Shown here: positions 12,315 to 58,623 of the stretch, in pieces
Position numbering within the stretch: the first letter of the stretch is position 1
Layout: every line of letters begins with the position of its first letter
Source of the DNA: Phyllobacterium phragmitis
GTDB lineage: Bacteria; Pseudomonadota; Alphaproteobacteria; Rhizobiales; Rhizobiaceae
Direction of reading: 5' to 3'
Length of the DNA: 64,000 bases
NCBI RefSeq assembly: GCF_002980495.1
Contig: NZ_PVBR01000004.1
Span: 1-64,000 of the forward strand
The notes under the pieces: generated by a model
Databases searched by the model: none
What the model saw: the letters and a program-made list of their open reading frames with translations, nothing else
Told to the model about the DNA's origin: nothing
Translations under genes and position numbers: made by a program

Positions 12315-14344
<2,030 letters not shown>

Positions 14345-14369: not shown

Positions 14370-14532
14370 ACACCCCCCTCTGCCCTGCCGGGCATCTCCC
14401 CCACAAGGGTGGAGATTGGCTGTCATTGAGGGCGGCGCATCATTCGCTACGTTGGTGATCAGCGAAAGCGGAGATCACAGCTTAATCTCCCCCCTTGTGG
14501 GGGAGATGTCCGGCAGGACAGAGGGGGGTGTG
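14370..14532. repeat. Long palindromic intergenic element between aroA and cmk
   Basis: Two roughly 47-bp arms (14371-14417 and 14484-14531) are imperfect inverted repeats, both running from CACCCCCCTCTG to a CATCTCCCCC block. The ~65-bp centre contains a smaller inverted repeat, GTGATCAGCG...GGAGATCAC. A related element lies at 39952-40128. Such elements are common in rhizobial intergenic regions. It has no coding capacity. Confidence 0.85.
14521..14530 (+). promoter_or_regulatory. cmk ribosome binding site formed by the palindromic element
   Basis: GAGGGGGGTG, the last bases of the palindromic element, is the only purine-rich stretch before the GTG start of cmk at 14536, so it is likely the Shine-Dalgarno site. 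It could be sequestered when the element folds in mRNA. Confidence 0.6.
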
Positions 14533-14535
14533 TAA

Positions 14536-15183
14536 GTGCCTGATACTTTCACCATCGCCATCGACGGGCCGGCGGCTTCCGGCAAGGGGACGCTGGCGCG
14601 GCGGCTGGCCGTTCATTACGGCTTTCATCATCTCGATACGGGATTGACCTATCGCGCGGTGGCGAAGGCGCTTCTCGATCGCGGTCTGCCGCTCGATGAT
14701 GAAGCCATCGCCGCGGAAATGGCGCAGAATCTCGATCTGCAGCATCTCGACCGCGCCGCACTTGTCGCGCACCATGTGGGCGAAGCGGCATCGAAGGTGG
14801 CGGTGATGCCGGCGGTGCGCAGGGCGCTGGTGGCGGCGCAGCGCGCCTTTGCGCAAACCCCGCCTGGAACGATACTCGACGGGCGCGACATCGGCACGGT
14901 GGTTTGCCCCGATGCTCCGGTGAAACTCTACGTAATGGCTTCGGCCGAAGCGCGCGCCAGACGCCGCCATGCGGAGATCAGCGCCAGTGGCGGCGAGGCC
15001 GGTTTTGCCGAAATCCTCGCCGACCTCAACCGGCGCGACGCGCGCGATATGGGCCGCACCGATTCGCCGCTCAAGCCGGCAGACGATGCACACTTGCTAG
15101 ATACGACCGAAATGGATATAGAGGCGGCATTCCTGGCCGCCAAGCGGCTGGTCGATGAGGCATTGGCGAAACGCCAAGCCTGA
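14536..15183 (+). CDS. cmk: Cytidylate kinase
   Basis: Phosphorylates CMP and dCMP with ATP in the cytoplasm. The 215-residue product has the P-loop GPAASGKGT near residues 10-18, the [11 protein letters not shown] substrate segment and [13 protein letters not shown]. It starts with GTG; no ATG occurs before the P-loop. It lies between aroA and rpsA, the usual alphaproteobacterial order, but here a palindromic element sits between aroA and cmk. Confidence 0.96.
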
Positions 15184-39951: not shown

Positions 39952-40128
39952 CACCCCCCTCTGACTTGCCAGCCATCTCCCCTCAAGGGGGGAGATCAGG
40001 CCTTCATAGCGCTCGCCACCAATCGCAGACGTTGCAGAATGAACATCAAGGGCCATGCCAGCCAATCTCCCTCCTTGAGGGGGAGATGCCCGCCCTTCGA
40101 CAAGCTCAGGAGGGCAGAGGGGGGTGTG
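39952..40128. repeat. Palindromic element after ghrA, related to the one before cmk
   Basis: Inverted arms at 39952-40000 and 40062-40128 share the CACCCCCCTCTG...CATCTCCCC plan of the 14370-14532 copy. The right arm carries a 15-20 bp insert around CCTTCGACAAGCTCAGGA (about 40094-40112) not seen in the other copy; that motif is itself a common bacterial repeat. No coding capacity. Confidence 0.82.
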
Positions 40129-53502: not shown

Positions 53503-53883
53503 TTAGTTGACCGCGCCGTCGCCCTGATAGGCATTTTCGCAAAACGGCGTGCAGGACAGCATCTGCACATTGGCGCGGCGATAGACCCGCGTGGTCTTGG
53601 AATCGTCGCGGCCGACGACGATCTGGTCGTCGACAATGGCACTGCCGTCGGCATCCATGATGACGATATTGGTGACGCCGAAGCCTTTGCCGGTGAGAAC
53701 CACGGTCCTTGAATCCTGCACGACCGCATCGGCGATATCAGGATTGCCGATGACGACCGTATCGGCCGGGCGCGCCAGACGCAGCACACGGGCCTGATTG
53801 GTCACCAGTTTGATGTTCTCATCGGCCATGGCGCTGCCCAGGCCTGCGGATAACGCCATGAGAACGACCGAGGCAGCCCGCAT
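53503..53883 (-). CDS. Free-standing secretin N-terminal-domain protein (CpaC-N-like)
   Basis: Predicted 126-residue exported protein. A signal peptide (MRAASVVLMALSAGLGSAMA) is followed by the domain found at the start of CpaC/RcpA secretins: NQARVLRLARPADTVVIGNP, ADAVVQDSRTVVLTGKGFG and TNIVIMDADG match the NPDVADAV and GQTNIFVFGPNG parts of the CpaC encoded nearby. No secretin barrel follows. Two cysteines near the end (SCTPFCEN) may form a disulphide. It may act as a pilotin or secretin partner. GGAGG precedes the ATG at 53883. Confidence 0.8.
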   Translation of the reverse strand: MRAASVVLMALSAGLGSAMADENIKLVTNQARVLRLARPADTVVIGNPDIADAVVQDSRTVVLTGKGFGVTNIVIMDADGSAIVDDQIVVGRDDSKTTRVYRRANVQMLSCTPFCENAYQGDGAVN

Positions 53884-54285
53884 CGTGCCTCCAAGATCGT
53901 ATCGGCCTTTATATGACACGCGATTTCTCCCACCCGGCAAATTCCTGCCCGAAAATGAAGGAGATTGGTGAAGGAACGATTAAGGCTCATATCCCCGGTC
54001 GAGGCTATCTTCCCCGCCTGCCCGATCAATGTTCAAGCATGACTTCCACGAATATTCGAAAGCCTGAAATCACGGTTCGGTGGAACGCCTGATCATTACT
54101 TCAAAACGACTGTAAAATGTTTCCCTTGGATTAACTACGTCAAGGCAAGCAGCGCATTTACCTTTTCCTAATCCTGTTTTTTAAGGCGATTGCAATTCTG
54201 GCCATCTAGGTTCCGGCCATCCGATCAACGAGATCAAAAACAGTTGACGGAGTGCTGTACCAACAAGAACCCAGGAGCCAAAATC
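53884..54285. promoter_or_regulatory. Divergent promoter region of the Tad locus
   Basis: About 400 bp of lower-GC sequence separating the minus-strand CpaC-N-like gene from the first Flp pilin. It must carry promoters in both directions. Single TTAA half sites occur, but no full TTAA-N7-TTAA CtrA site was found by eye. No gene is called. Confidence 0.55.
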
Positions 54286-54792: not shown

Positions 54793-55314
54793 ATGATCGA
54801 AGCGGCCATTCTCATTGTGTTTCCGTTTGCCATGGCTTTCGCGGCAATCTCCGATCTTCTGTCGATGACGATCCAGAACCGGGTTTCGCTGATCCTCGTC
54901 GGCGCCTTCGCTATTCTCGCGCCGCTGACCGGCATGGCGTGGGATGTCTACGCCCTACATTTCGCCGCCGGATTTGCCGTATTGACGGCGACATTCGGCC
55001 TTTTCGCCATCCGCGCCATGGGCGGCGGCGACGCGAAGCTGATGGCGGCAACCGCCCTGTGGTTCGGCTTGAATACCAGTCTGGTGACTTATCTCTTCAC
55101 CGCATCGATGCTGGGCGGCATGCTGACGCTGGCGATCCTCGCCTATCGCAGATCGCCGATAACGGTGGTGGCCGGGCGTTTCGAATTCATGCGCCGGCTG
55201 GCGCAAAACGACATCGGCATTCCCTATGGCATTGCGCTCGGCGCTGCCGGTCTGCTGACCTTTCCGCAATCCGCACTCGGCACCTGGGTCCTCGGACGAC
55301 TTTCGTCCCTGTAA
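54793..55314 (+). CDS. cpaA: Prepilin peptidase CpaA/TadV
   Basis: A24-family aspartic protease that cuts Flp prepilins and pseudopilins at the inner membrane. The 173-residue product has the two catalytic aspartates: D21 (ISDLLSMTIQN) and D80 in GGGDAKL. The short form without an N-terminal methylase domain is typical for Tad systems. GGGAGGAG precedes the ATG at 54793. Confidence 0.92.
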   Translation: MIEAAILIVFPFAMAFAAISDLLSMTIQNRVSLILVGAFAILAPLTGMAWDVYALHFAAGFAVLTATFGLFAIRAMGGGDAKLMAATALWFGLNTSLVTYLFTASMLGGMLTLAILAYRRSPITVVAGRFEFMRRLAQNDIGIPYGIALGAAGLLTFPQSALGTWVLGRLSSL

Positions 55315-55426
55315 CGCCCATTCATCTTTCCGGCCCCGCCATAAGATTGCGTTAACCATAATTACACTTTTCCCGCTGCATGTTGTGGCTCACGCGTTTG
55401 GGGCGCGTTTGCGCAGGGTGGGACCA

Positions 55427-56239
55427 ATGAAATCAGCACGCCTGGTCGTTCTGGCCGTAGCGGTCATCGCTGCTGGCGGTGCGGGCATGATCGCGATGAA
55501 CATGTCGGCGGCACCGCCTGATGTCGTCGAGACCGCCGCACCGGCACCGCAGATCGAATTGCAGGATGTTCTTGTCGCCACCGAAAATCTCGGCGTCGGC
55601 GCGGAAGTGCGCGATCAGTTGCGCTGGCAACCCTGGCCCGTCACGGCCATCAGCGACGGCTATATCACGCGCAATGCCGAGCCGCAGGCCATCGATGATC
55701 TCAAGGGGTCGACGGTCCGGCTGCAGTTCCTGGCCGGCGAGCCCATCCGCAAGGCCAAGCTGATCGGGCCTGGCCAAAGCTTCATGTCTTCTATGCTGCC
55801 GCCGGGCATGCGGGCCGTGGCGACGCAAATCTCGGCCGATACATCGGCGGGCGGCTTTATCCTTCCCAATGATTTCGTCGACGTCATCATGACGCGGCGG
55901 CGGCAGGACGGCGCCAATAGCTCGGGCCCGGCCTTCCTGACCGAAACCATCCTGGAGAATATCCGCGTCCTGGCCATCGACCAGGCCATCCAGGAAGATG
56001 AAAAAGGCCAGAAGGTCATCGTCGGCCAGACCGCGACGCTCGAGCTGACATCGCAGCAGGCCGAGATCATCATCGTCGCGCAGCAGATGGCGGACCGGCT
56101 CAGCCTCGCGCTGCGCTCGACACATGACGCACAGGAGCCGGCGGGCAAGGAAGCCGATTATCTCATTTCGGCTCCCGGACGGCGCGGAACAGTGAAACTC
56201 ATAAAATCGGGAAGCGTGACGGAAGTGGGTGCGAAATGA
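55427..56239 (+). CDS. cpaB: Flp pilus assembly protein CpaB/RcpC
   Basis: Periplasmic protein of the Tad secretin complex. The 270-residue product has an N-terminal membrane anchor, a SAF domain (VLVATENLGVGAEV, AGEPIRKAKL) and the RcpC segment GMRAVATQISADTSAGGFIL followed by NDFVDVIMTRR. It starts at 55427 behind CAGGGTGGG; its stop overlaps the cpaC start (ATGA). Confidence 0.93.
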   Translation: MKSARLVVLAVAVIAAGGAGMIAMNMSAAPPDVVETAAPAPQIELQDVLVATENLGVGAEVRDQLRWQPWPVTAISDGYITRNAEPQAIDDLKGSTVRLQFLAGEPIRKAKLIGPGQSFMSSMLPPGMRAVATQISADTSAGGFILPNDFVDVIMTRRRQDGANSSGPAFLTETILENIRVLAIDQAIQEDEKGQKVIVGQTATLELTSQQAEIIIVAQQMADRLSLALRSTHDAQEPAGKEADYLISAPGRRGTVKLIKSGSVTEVGAK

Positions 56240-57906
56240 TGATGAGCAACGGCATTTCCCGTACCCTCGTCCTTCGAGGCTCGCTCCGCTCGCACCTCAG
56301 GACGAGGGTACGGGAAGCGCGGCGCCAGATGACCCTCATCCTGAGGTGCGGAGCGAAGCGAAGCCTCGAAGGACGAGGGTCATTGCATCCATATGCAATT
56401 GCCCTGATAGCCCTTCTCCCATTGGCCGGGCCGCTGTTGCCCCACGCCCATGCCGAAAGCAATGTCATTCAGCTCACGGGCCAGAACGGCTCGACCAAGC
56501 GCATCAAGCTCGGCCTCAACAAATCGATCGTCATCGACCTGCCGCGCGACGCCTATGACATTCTCGTGGCCAACCCGGATGTGGCGGATGCGGTAACGCG
56601 CACGGCGCGGCGCATCTATCTCTTCGGGAAACAGGTCGGCCAGACCAATATCTTCGTGTTCGGGCCGAATGGCGAGCAGATCGCCAGCCTCGACCTGGAG
56701 ATCGAACGCGACGTGGCGGGGCTCAACCATTACCTGAAGAAATATATACCCGGCTCCGACATCACCGTCGAACTGATCAACGACAATGTGGTTTTGACCG
56801 GGACGGTGCAGACGCCGCAGGACGCGGCGCAGGCGGCGAAACTGGCGGGGCTGTTCGTCTCCGGCGGTGAAGCGACCACCGGCCAGTACACCACCACCGC
56901 CTCGGCGCCGACGGATGGCGGCGGCGTCGACATCAACAACCCGGATTCCCAACGCCGCTCCAGCAAGATCGTCAACATGATCAAGATCACCGGCGAGGAC
57001 CAGGTAATGCTGAAAGTGACTGTGGCCGAGGTCAACCGCTCGGTCATGAAGCAGCTCGGCGTCAACATGATCGGCTCGGGAAGCGCCAACGGCATCAGCT
57101 ATGGCGGCATTTCGGAGAATGTCGCCGGCGTCGTCGGCAAGGCCATCACCAGTTCCGGTGCTGCTGTTGCAGGTGAGTTCGGCAGCGGAACCCTCAGCGC
57201 CTATCTCAACGCCATGGAACTGGCGGGCGTGATGAAGACGCTGGCGGAACCGACGCTGACGGCGATTTCGGGTGAAAAGGCGGTCTTCAAGGTCGGTGGC
57301 GAATACAACATCATCTCCGGCCAGGACGTCAGCGTCAACGAGGTCACCGGCAAGGAAACCCCTGTCATCACGCATGAAAAGATCGAGTACGGCATCGGCC
57401 TCGAATTCATGCCGGTGGTGCTTTCGCCGGGCCGCATCAGCCTGAAGGTGCGCACCTCGGTTTCCGAGCCGGTCCTCGAATCCTCGATCGCCATGAGCGG
57501 TGGCGTATCAAGCCCCGCCGGCAATATCCTGTCGCTGCGCAAGCGCCTCGCCGATACGACCGTGGAACTGCCGTCCGGCGGCTCGATGATGATCGCCGGC
57601 CTGATCCGCGACGAAACCCGGCAGGCGATATCAGGCTATCCCGGGCTTTCGAAGATCCCGGTCCTGGGTGCGCTTTTCCGCAGCCGCGATTTCGTGCGCA
57701 ACGAGACCGAGCTGGTCATCCTGATCACGCCCTATCTGGTGCGTCCCGTGGCGCGCACGCAGCTTGCCCGCCCCGACGACAATCTGACGCCTGCAAGCGA
57801 TGCGGCAGGCTACATCCTCGGCAAGGTCAACCGCGTCTACGGCACGGCCGAAGCCAAACTGCCGCCCGGCCGCTATCACGGCGTCGTCGGCTACATCTAC
57901 AAATAA
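56236..57906 (+). CDS. cpaC: Secretin CpaC/RcpA with repeat-derived N-terminal extension
   Basis: Outer-membrane secretin of the Tad pilus, 556 residues. It has the pilus N-domain (about residues 75-165, VANPDVADAV and GQTNIFVFGPNG), a BON-like part (DNVVLTGTVQTPQDA), the secretin domain with LAEPTLTAISGEKAVFKVGG and the VPVLGALFRS-type ending. Residues ~8-49 are encoded by two inverted REP-like palindromes, giving an Arg-rich extension before the true signal peptide core (YAIALIALLPLAGPLLPHAHA). An internal ATG at 56329 (residue 32) is a possible alternative start but has no ribosome binding site. Confidence 0.93.
   Translation: MMMSNGISRTLVLRGSLRSHLRTRVREARRQMTLILRCGAKRSLEGRGSLHPYAIALIALLPLAGPLLPHAHAESNVIQLTGQNGSTKRIKLGLNKSIVIDLPRDAYDILVANPDVADAVTRTARRIYLFGKQVGQTNIFVFGPNGEQIASLDLEIERDVAGLNHYLKKYIPGSDITVELINDNVVLTGTVQTPQDAAQAAKLAGLFVSGGEATTGQYTTTASAPTDGGGVDINNPDSQRRSSKIVNMIKITGEDQVMLKVTVAEVNRSVMKQLGVNMIGSGSANGISYGGISENVAGVVGKAITSSGAAVAGEFGSGTLSAYLNAMELAGVMKTLAEPTLTAISGEKAVFKVGGEYNIISGQDVSVNEVTGKETPVITHEKIEYGIGLEFMPVVLSPGRISLKVRTSVSEPVLESSIAMSGGVSSPAGNILSLRKRLADTTVELPSGGSMMIAGLIRDETRQAISGYPGLSKIPVLGALFRSRDFVRNETELVILITPYLVRPVARTQLARPDDNLTPASDAAGYILGKVNRVYGTAEAKLPPGRYHGVVGYIYK
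56256..56383. repeat. REP-like doublet inside the 5' end of cpaC
   Basis: Two palindromes lie in opposite orientation. The first (56256-56316) has perfect 18-bp arms (56256-56273 and 56299-56316). The second (56329-56383) has 14-bp arms with one mismatch. Both contain the CCTCGTCCTTCGAGGC and GCACCTCAGGA units typical of dispersed rhizobial repeats. The insert keeps the cpaC frame open. Confidence 0.88.
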
Positions 57907-57921
57907 GCGAGGAATGCGGTG

Positions 57922-58623
57922 ATGCTCAGGCCCGATACAGTTTTCCGCATGAAGCCCGCTTTGGTCCTGCTGGCGCTCGCACTCCTTTCCGGCTGCGCGA
58001 ACCGGCAAAACCCGACGGTCGGCTCGATCCCGGACGACTATCGCACCAATCATCCGATCAGCATCGCCGAGCGCGAGCAGGTGGCGGATATTCCCGTTGC
58101 GCATGGCGACCGGCGCCTGTCGGCCACCCAACGCAGCATCGTGCAGAACGCGCTCGTCAACTATCGCGCCAATGGTTCCGGCATGGTCTATATCATGCTG
58201 CCGTCAGGATCGCCCAACGAGGCGGCGGCATACCGGCTGAGCACGGATATCGCGGATGTGCTGCGCAAGGGCGGCGTCCGGCAAGGCAATATCGCCACGG
58301 AAACCTATGCCGTGCAGTCGCCCGATGCGGCAGCCCCCATCCGCATCAGCTATTATGCGATGACCGCCGCGACCGGCCCTTGCGGCAGATGGCCCGACGA
58401 TCTGCTGAATACCGCGGAGAACAAGCATTACACGAATTTCGGATGCGCCAATCAGAACAATCTGGCCGCCCAGATCGCCAATCCGGCCGATCTGCTCGGG
58501 CCGCGTGCGCCCGGAGATATCGACGCGACACGGCGTGGCAACGTGATCGGCGACTATCAGGACCATTCGCAGAGCACGAGCGAAGTCTGGCAGGAATCGC
58601 GCAGCCGGCAAGCCGAGTATTGA
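57922..58623 (+). CDS. cpaD: Pilus assembly lipoprotein CpaD
   Basis: Outer-membrane or periplasmic lipoprotein, partner of the secretin. The 233-residue product has a lipobox (LLALALLSGC) and the CpaD marks GPCGRWPDDLLNTAEN and FGCANQNNLAAQIANPADLL, with conserved cysteines. GAGGAA precedes the ATG at 57922; a GTG three bases earlier is possible. Confidence 0.93.
   Translation: MLRPDTVFRMKPALVLLALALLSGCANRQNPTVGSIPDDYRTNHPISIAEREQVADIPVAHGDRRLSATQRSIVQNALVNYRANGSGMVYIMLPSGSPNEAAAYRLSTDIADVLRKGGVRQGNIATETYAVQSPDAAAPIRISYYAMTAATGPCGRWPDDLLNTAENKHYTNFGCANQNNLAAQIANPADLLGPRAPGDIDATRRGNVIGDYQDHSQSTSEVWQESRSRQAEY

Follow-up and report, generated by a model that had tools for sequence, protein, structure and literature searches.

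An inverted REP-type doublet lies in frame within the leader of the secretin gene cpaC of Phyllobacterium phragmitis, and the reading we favour, at a probability of about 0.6, is that of a selfish element in a permissive leader, which kept the frame and start of the gene, is translated as the n-region of the signal peptide, is removed with that peptide and persists by tolerance. The stretch of DNA analysed here (the window, 64,000 nucleotides) comprises bases 1-64000 of contig C4 of the source genome (G000; 5.6 Mb in 139 contigs), which was compared with five other genomes of the genus (G001-G005), giving six genomes with G000. The features of the locus are collected in Table 1.

Table 1. Features in and around the leader of cpaC (positions of the window)
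Feature	Position	Strand	Remarks
cpaC, secretin, 556 residues	56236..57906	+	T2SS-T3SS_pil_N, BON and Secretin domains; frame not interrupted by the doublet
ATGA, cpaC start overlapping cpaB stop	56236..56239	+	most likely start
Upstream ORF, CpaB	55385..56239	+	named by eye from place and sequence
REP-type inverted doublet	56258..56383	+	126 nt; bounds from the sub-variant common to two other copies
First palindromic unit	56256..56316	+	18-nt arms 56256-56273/56299-56316, 100% complementary
Second palindromic unit	56329..56383	+	14-nt arms 56329-56342/56370-56383, 93% complementary; alternative start ATG 56329 opens the unit
GCATCCATATGC	56385..56396	+	also directly 3′ of the REP copy at G000:C9 (L005:1663-1674); possibly imported DNA
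Hydrophobic part of the signal peptide, LHPYAIALIALLPLAGPLLPHAHA	56383..56454	+	cleavage before ES inferred by eye

The first-pass annotation had described two inverted palindromic units, one of them with perfect 18-bp arms; this geometry was confirmed, the second unit having 14-bp arms with one mismatch, and the spacing between arms is 25 nt in the first unit and 27 nt in the second. Its proposed extent, 56256-56383, lies close to the edges (56258-56383) of a sub-variant present in the cpaC copy, a copy in CydD and a copy on contig C9, which spans CCCGT to TCAT and has longer arms than the other copies. As had also been claimed, the doublet falls within the first 50 codons of cpaC and leaves the frame unbroken (56236-57906 is open throughout), occupying CpaC codons 8-49 and encoding an Arg-rich peptide ahead of the hydrophobic core, with 11 Arg, 1 Lys and 2 acidic residues in a stretch of 41. 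The motif before the inferred ES cleavage point is A-x-A in five of the six genomes and TRA in G005, as read from the alignment. The two units can also pair with each other (19 nt, 100%, 56263-56281/56362-56380), and the RNA fold of the 128 nt doublet reaches -94.9 kcal/mol, whereas shuffled sequences average -49.8 (z -10.3) and none of 200 folded as well; folded alone, the first and second units give z values of -7.7 and -5.8, respectively, against shuffles. The predicted hairpin begins 20 nt 3′ of the cpaC start codon.

At the edges of the three sub-variant copies, the 5′ flanks are unlike, and no target-site duplication of the kind that marks a MITE is apparent by eye. On the 3′ side, GCATCCATATGC follows the REP at the cpaC and C9 copies and nowhere else in the 221 loci compared, the CydD copy lacking it. 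Because the C9 copy has the same 3′ flank as cpaC, the imported DNA may end further 3′, reaching at least 13 nt past 56383, and the common flank might mean that the mobile unit is longer or that sequence was copied from one locus to the other. A search of positions 55000-58000 with Rfam gave two matches up to E 1, both far under the gathering scores and outside the doublet.

An empty site in close relatives had been proposed as a check, and the cpaC leaders of G005 and G002, which measure 52 codons each against 78 in G000, lack the doublet, supporting an insertion. Both the cpaC core and the rpoB trees place G005 as the sister of G000 (99/100 and 100/99, respectively), and the doublet would most simply have entered the leader after the split from this nearest sampled species. 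Since the net gain of G000 over G005 (26 codons, or 78 nt) is less than the 126-nt sub-variant, some 48 nt of leader may have been lost or other indels may have occurred. The annotation had named two outcomes as counting against its reading, an extension conserved in all relatives and a unit absent elsewhere in the genome, and neither occurred. Insertion evidently preserved both the frame and the ATGA start: the overlap with the cpaB stop, seen in 79 of the 110 loci examined, is intact in G000, with the upstream sequence unchanged. Leader length, taken from this overlap to the core, was measurable by rule in 96 of these loci (14 were not) and lies between 31 and 65 codons in 88 of them; L086, with 351 codons, was judged a misassignment, and the other seven belong to four genomes (G000, 78 codons; G001, 102; G004, 107; G003, 109). 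The cpaC gene of G000 is intact and under purifying selection, with a core dN/dS of 0.066 for G000-G005, similar to the 0.078 obtained for G002-G003; the value of 0.377 for G004-G001 was set aside, as this ungapped comparison may have slipped at an indel. Near the cpa genes, a short ORF on the reverse strand (53503-53940) resembles the N-terminal domain of CpaC alone, with 36% identity to residues 86-160.

The search for other copies, also suggested by the annotation, established the unit as a dispersed repeat: at least 80 matches in G000 were merged by hand to at least 38 places, a lower bound in that 40 of 59 first-look candidates were scored. With up to 40 candidates scored per genome, G004 gave at least 82 matches, G001 at least 79, G002 two weak ones, and G003 and G005 none; in a wider sample of the family, with the best 10 candidates per genome scored, at least 24 of 81 genomes gave matches. 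A length rule retained 29 of the 38 places as full-length doublets and left out nine. Among these 29 copies, paired arms change together by eye (CC/GG versus GG/CC), and GTAG immediately precedes the right unit in 15 and the left unit in four; in the cpaC copy, the right unit is preceded by GATGA. In four REP copies (L163, L165, L166 and L168), a nested palindrome, CCCCTTCGACAGGCTCAGGG, takes the place where the loop usually stands.

That the element is itself adapted to coding was considered and rejected: the full-length copies have 56 open frames out of 174, fewer than the shuffle mean of 71, and 499 of 500 shuffles have at least as many. The element is read in frame 0 in CpaC and in frame 2 in CydD; because the two proteins read different frames and open frames are fewer than in shuffles, selection on the REP-encoded peptide itself is unlikely. 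Of the at least 38 places, two, in CpaC and CydD, are conserved on both sides, with a start or a domain before the element and a domain after it. Inspection by eye of 13 other long ORFs at REP places suggested spurious frames or genes whose start lies downstream of the REP.

The RAYT transposase gene for which the annotation had recommended a search did not emerge, searches with PF01797 and NF047646 yielding no RAYT over the curated cut-off. The NF047646 profile passed its cut-off in none of the six genomes; among 14 control genomes, it gave a match in six and exceeded the cut-off in one. The sole Y1_Tnp protein of G000 scores 142.8 bits as IS200 (cut-off 55) versus 35.2 as RAYT (cut-off 80) and was assigned to IS200 TnpA; its gene lies on contig C32, where no REP place is listed. 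A Y1 match in G004 was likewise rejected as a RAYT, having an internal stop and scoring 42.2 bits, under the RAYT cut-off. No dedicated transposase, as would bear on assignment to the CGTC REPs, was found in this search, which covered tyrosine transposases.

In three of the five other genomes (G001, G003 and G004), the cpaC leader holds, in frame, a palindromic element of high copy number that differs from the REP. It is 134-153 nt long, comprises two sub-palindromes, occupies one place with a similar 5′ flank in all three and belongs to a family with at least 80 matches in each of the six genomes. In the cpaC core tree, G001 groups with G004 (84/88) and G002 with G003 (96/96), and the rpoB tree places G001 next to G000 and G005 (92/98) with the remainder unresolved, so that the pairing of G000 with G005 is the sole one common to both. 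This second element may have been acquired in one gain followed by losses or in two gains; the flank shared by the three genomes would favour one gain. Within each of the three leaders (L109 in G001, L105 in G003 and L108 in G004), the left and right hairpin loops are complementary, and their letters differ between species, a pattern to which gene conversion, pairing or separate arrivals could have led. Two copies of the second family also lie in the window, at 14371-14530 and 39952-40092, the first copy between an ORF ending at 14344 and an ORF starting at 14536 (by eye AroA-like and cytidylate-kinase-like, respectively), just 5′ of the second ORF.

All four insert-bearing genomes retain the reading frame from ATGA to the core. 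Over the whole leader, frame 0 is the sole open frame in G001, G003 and G004; G004 differs from G001 and G003 in the frame in which the right arm is read, but regains the original frame downstream. In sets of 5000 shuffles, frame 0 stayed free of stops in 193 cases for G001, 223 for G003, 822 for G004 and 575 for G000. As two of the three frames of the G000 leader are open and 575 shuffles keep frame 0, the open frame of this genome taken alone is weak evidence for translation.

The strongest support for translation of the cpaC insert is indirect and comes from CydD of G000 (L002:407-2284, + strand; TIGR02857, 502.6 bits, cut-off 435), in which the REP sub-variant lies in frame at residues 366-404, between the ABC_membrane (49-310) and ABC_tran (427-574) domains. 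Measured between the same anchors, the linker has 34 residues in G003, 72 in G000 (with the REP), 67 in G002, 87 in G004 and 72 in G001; other in-frame palindromic inserts occupy it in three of the four compared congeners (G001, G002 and G004), and G003 has none. The insert of G002 represents a third high-copy family, half of which is matched by the linker of G004 (G004:C1:70134-70190), and that of G001 has perfect 13-nt arms, as judged by eye. For G005, no CydD match was obtained at E 1e-60 among the best 150 of 194 candidates.

Mid-gene insertions of the second family were sought at 21 places with long stop-free frames, hand-picked and hence not yielding a rate, and conserved sequence was found on both sides of the insert in four. 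Two are penicillin-binding protein 1C (PbpC) of G000 and G002 (L208:1075-3438 and L214:1081-3441, both + strand), in which the in-frame element lies in or beside the transpeptidase domain; the match of the G000 protein to TIGR02073 (681.9 bits) falls into two stretches, of which the best stops at residue 501, shortly ahead of the insert at 506. In a nitrate-reductase-type protein of G003 and G002 (L220:2036-4975, - strand, and L221:1359-4274, + strand), the in-frame insert separates the molybdopterin and dinucleotide-binding domains. The other 17 places were at 5′ ends or in frames of spurious appearance; L199 gave a 101-residue frame only. At L210 (G004:C22:49400-54600), a frame of what looks by eye like a glycosyltransferase gene runs, close to its start, through a second-family element followed by a REP-like peptide.

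Under the favoured reading, the insert would be translated from ATGA as an Arg-rich n-region of about 41 residues ahead of the hydrophobic core and would be cleaved off with the signal peptide, so that the mature secretin would be unchanged. The element would persist through the permissiveness of the site rather than a function of the peptide, because the REP is tolerated in another frame in CydD and other families occupy both places in congeners. The annotation had left two possibilities side by side, an element that became protein-coding or a start inside it at 56329; the former is the most likely, and the latter is weakened, the ATG at 56329 lying in a stem of the predicted hairpin and ATGA being intact. 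More broadly, the doublet could be untranslated leader RNA, with CpaC starting at ATG 56329 or at TTG 56383 behind the SD-like AAGGACGAGG and the upstream open frame incidental. A start at 56329 would give a 42-residue leader with a basic n-region, and PMC3733652 holds many NH2-terminal REPs to be non-coding, but both this ATG and the purine run fall within predicted stems. G003 and G004 do have a GTG shortly before the hydrophobic part, behind purine-rich sequence, whereas G001 has no ATG, GTG or TTG between the element and the hydrophobic part. Together with the preservation of the ATGA-to-core frame in every insert-bearing genome, and with the small numbers of shuffles that keep frame 0 open in G001 and G003, two genomes that share ancestry here, this makes an untranslated leader rather unlikely in our judgement.

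Selection could also have favoured the inserts, the extension or the RNA hairpin tuning CpaC synthesis or export; we regard this as improbable. Inserts in four of the six genomes and a very stable predicted hairpin so close behind the start codon would suit such a role, but the inserts are of two unrelated sequences and three lengths, G002 and G005 do without any, the element frame differs between CpaC and CydD, and the deficit of open frames among the REP copies points the same way. Still less credible is that the mobilising machinery prefers these sites as targets, as opposed to their being merely tolerant positions: although two families entered the same short leader and the cpaC and C9 copies share a 12-nt 3′ flank, the sub-variant copies differ in their 5′ flanks, the CydD copy lacks the 3′ flank, and the inserts of G001, G003 and G004, alike in position and 5′ flank, may be one event. 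An artefact of assembly is barely conceivable; repeats can be misjoined and G000 is in 139 contigs, but the locus lies inside a contig of 384,731 bases with frame and gene intact, and independent genomes have inserts at the same place.

Beyond tolerance of a selfish doublet in the cpaC leader, we tentatively suggest, at somewhat less than even odds, that several high-copy palindromic families, unrelated to one another, repeatedly insert at the same small set of permissive protein positions (the secretin leader and the CydD linker), lengthening orthologues independently. If true, protein tolerance would decide where intragenic repeats survive, the inserts would be natural markers of permissive sites, and secretin-type leaders would look like safe landing places for selfish DNA. 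The genus offers a comparative set, with insert-free alleles nearby and different families at one site, in which tolerated and selected inserts could be told apart, together with a catalogue of sites at which CpaC, CydD and further proteins take up about 30-60 additional residues. A literature search that covered a minority of subscription journals found neither repeated occupation of orthologous sites by unrelated families in one genus nor REP or second-family repeats in CpaC or CydD, the nearest account among the papers found being PMC3733652, and searches with the letters of the repeat and its peptides returned nothing relevant.

In-frame palindromes are known already, best from Rickettsia and also as intragenic REPs; the variant described here is that unrelated families have occupied the same sites repeatedly. 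Rhizobial intergenic mosaic elements (RIME) are two-palindrome repeats of rhizobial relatives, and the second family, as seen in the G001, G003 and G004 cpaC leaders, is likened to them by its two-palindrome description, not by sequence. Like RAYT-mobilised REPs and REPINs, the dispersed unit in G000 consists of two inverted REP units; the difference is that none of the six genomes has a RAYT gene that passes the curated cut-off. PMC3733652 describes CGTC REPs as lacking a dedicated transposase and having a CGTC, TGTC or CCTC tag, a stem of 8-9 bp and a loop of 4-5 nt; compared by that description, the present units differ, with arms of 18 and 14 nt and 25 and 27 nt between them. The same paper reports REP dimers in alpha-Proteobacteria, REPs inside ORFs, NH2 termini included, a recB gene hit at about the same site in two Xanthomonas species, and the classification of two Rickettsia conorii elements, RPE-4 and RPE-6, among the CGTC REPs. 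As portrayed there, the Rickettsia palindromic elements (RPE) are palindromic repeats in frame in conserved genes, extending proteins at NH2 termini and internally; CydD 366-404 and CpaC codons 8-49 would likewise appear to be in-frame, protein-coding palindromes in conserved genes. The likeness is one of description, not sequence, and the present case differs from RPE in concerning Phyllobacterium relatives, with at least three high-copy families and congener orthologues that are uninterrupted or differently interrupted. The intragenic dimers of the GTAG and CGTC super-families described in PMC3733652 are also dispersed and inverted and lie in some ORFs, at NH2 termini too, as here; in contrast to them, tags fit partly, no RAYT exceeds the cut-off, and orthologous sites hold different families in sister species.
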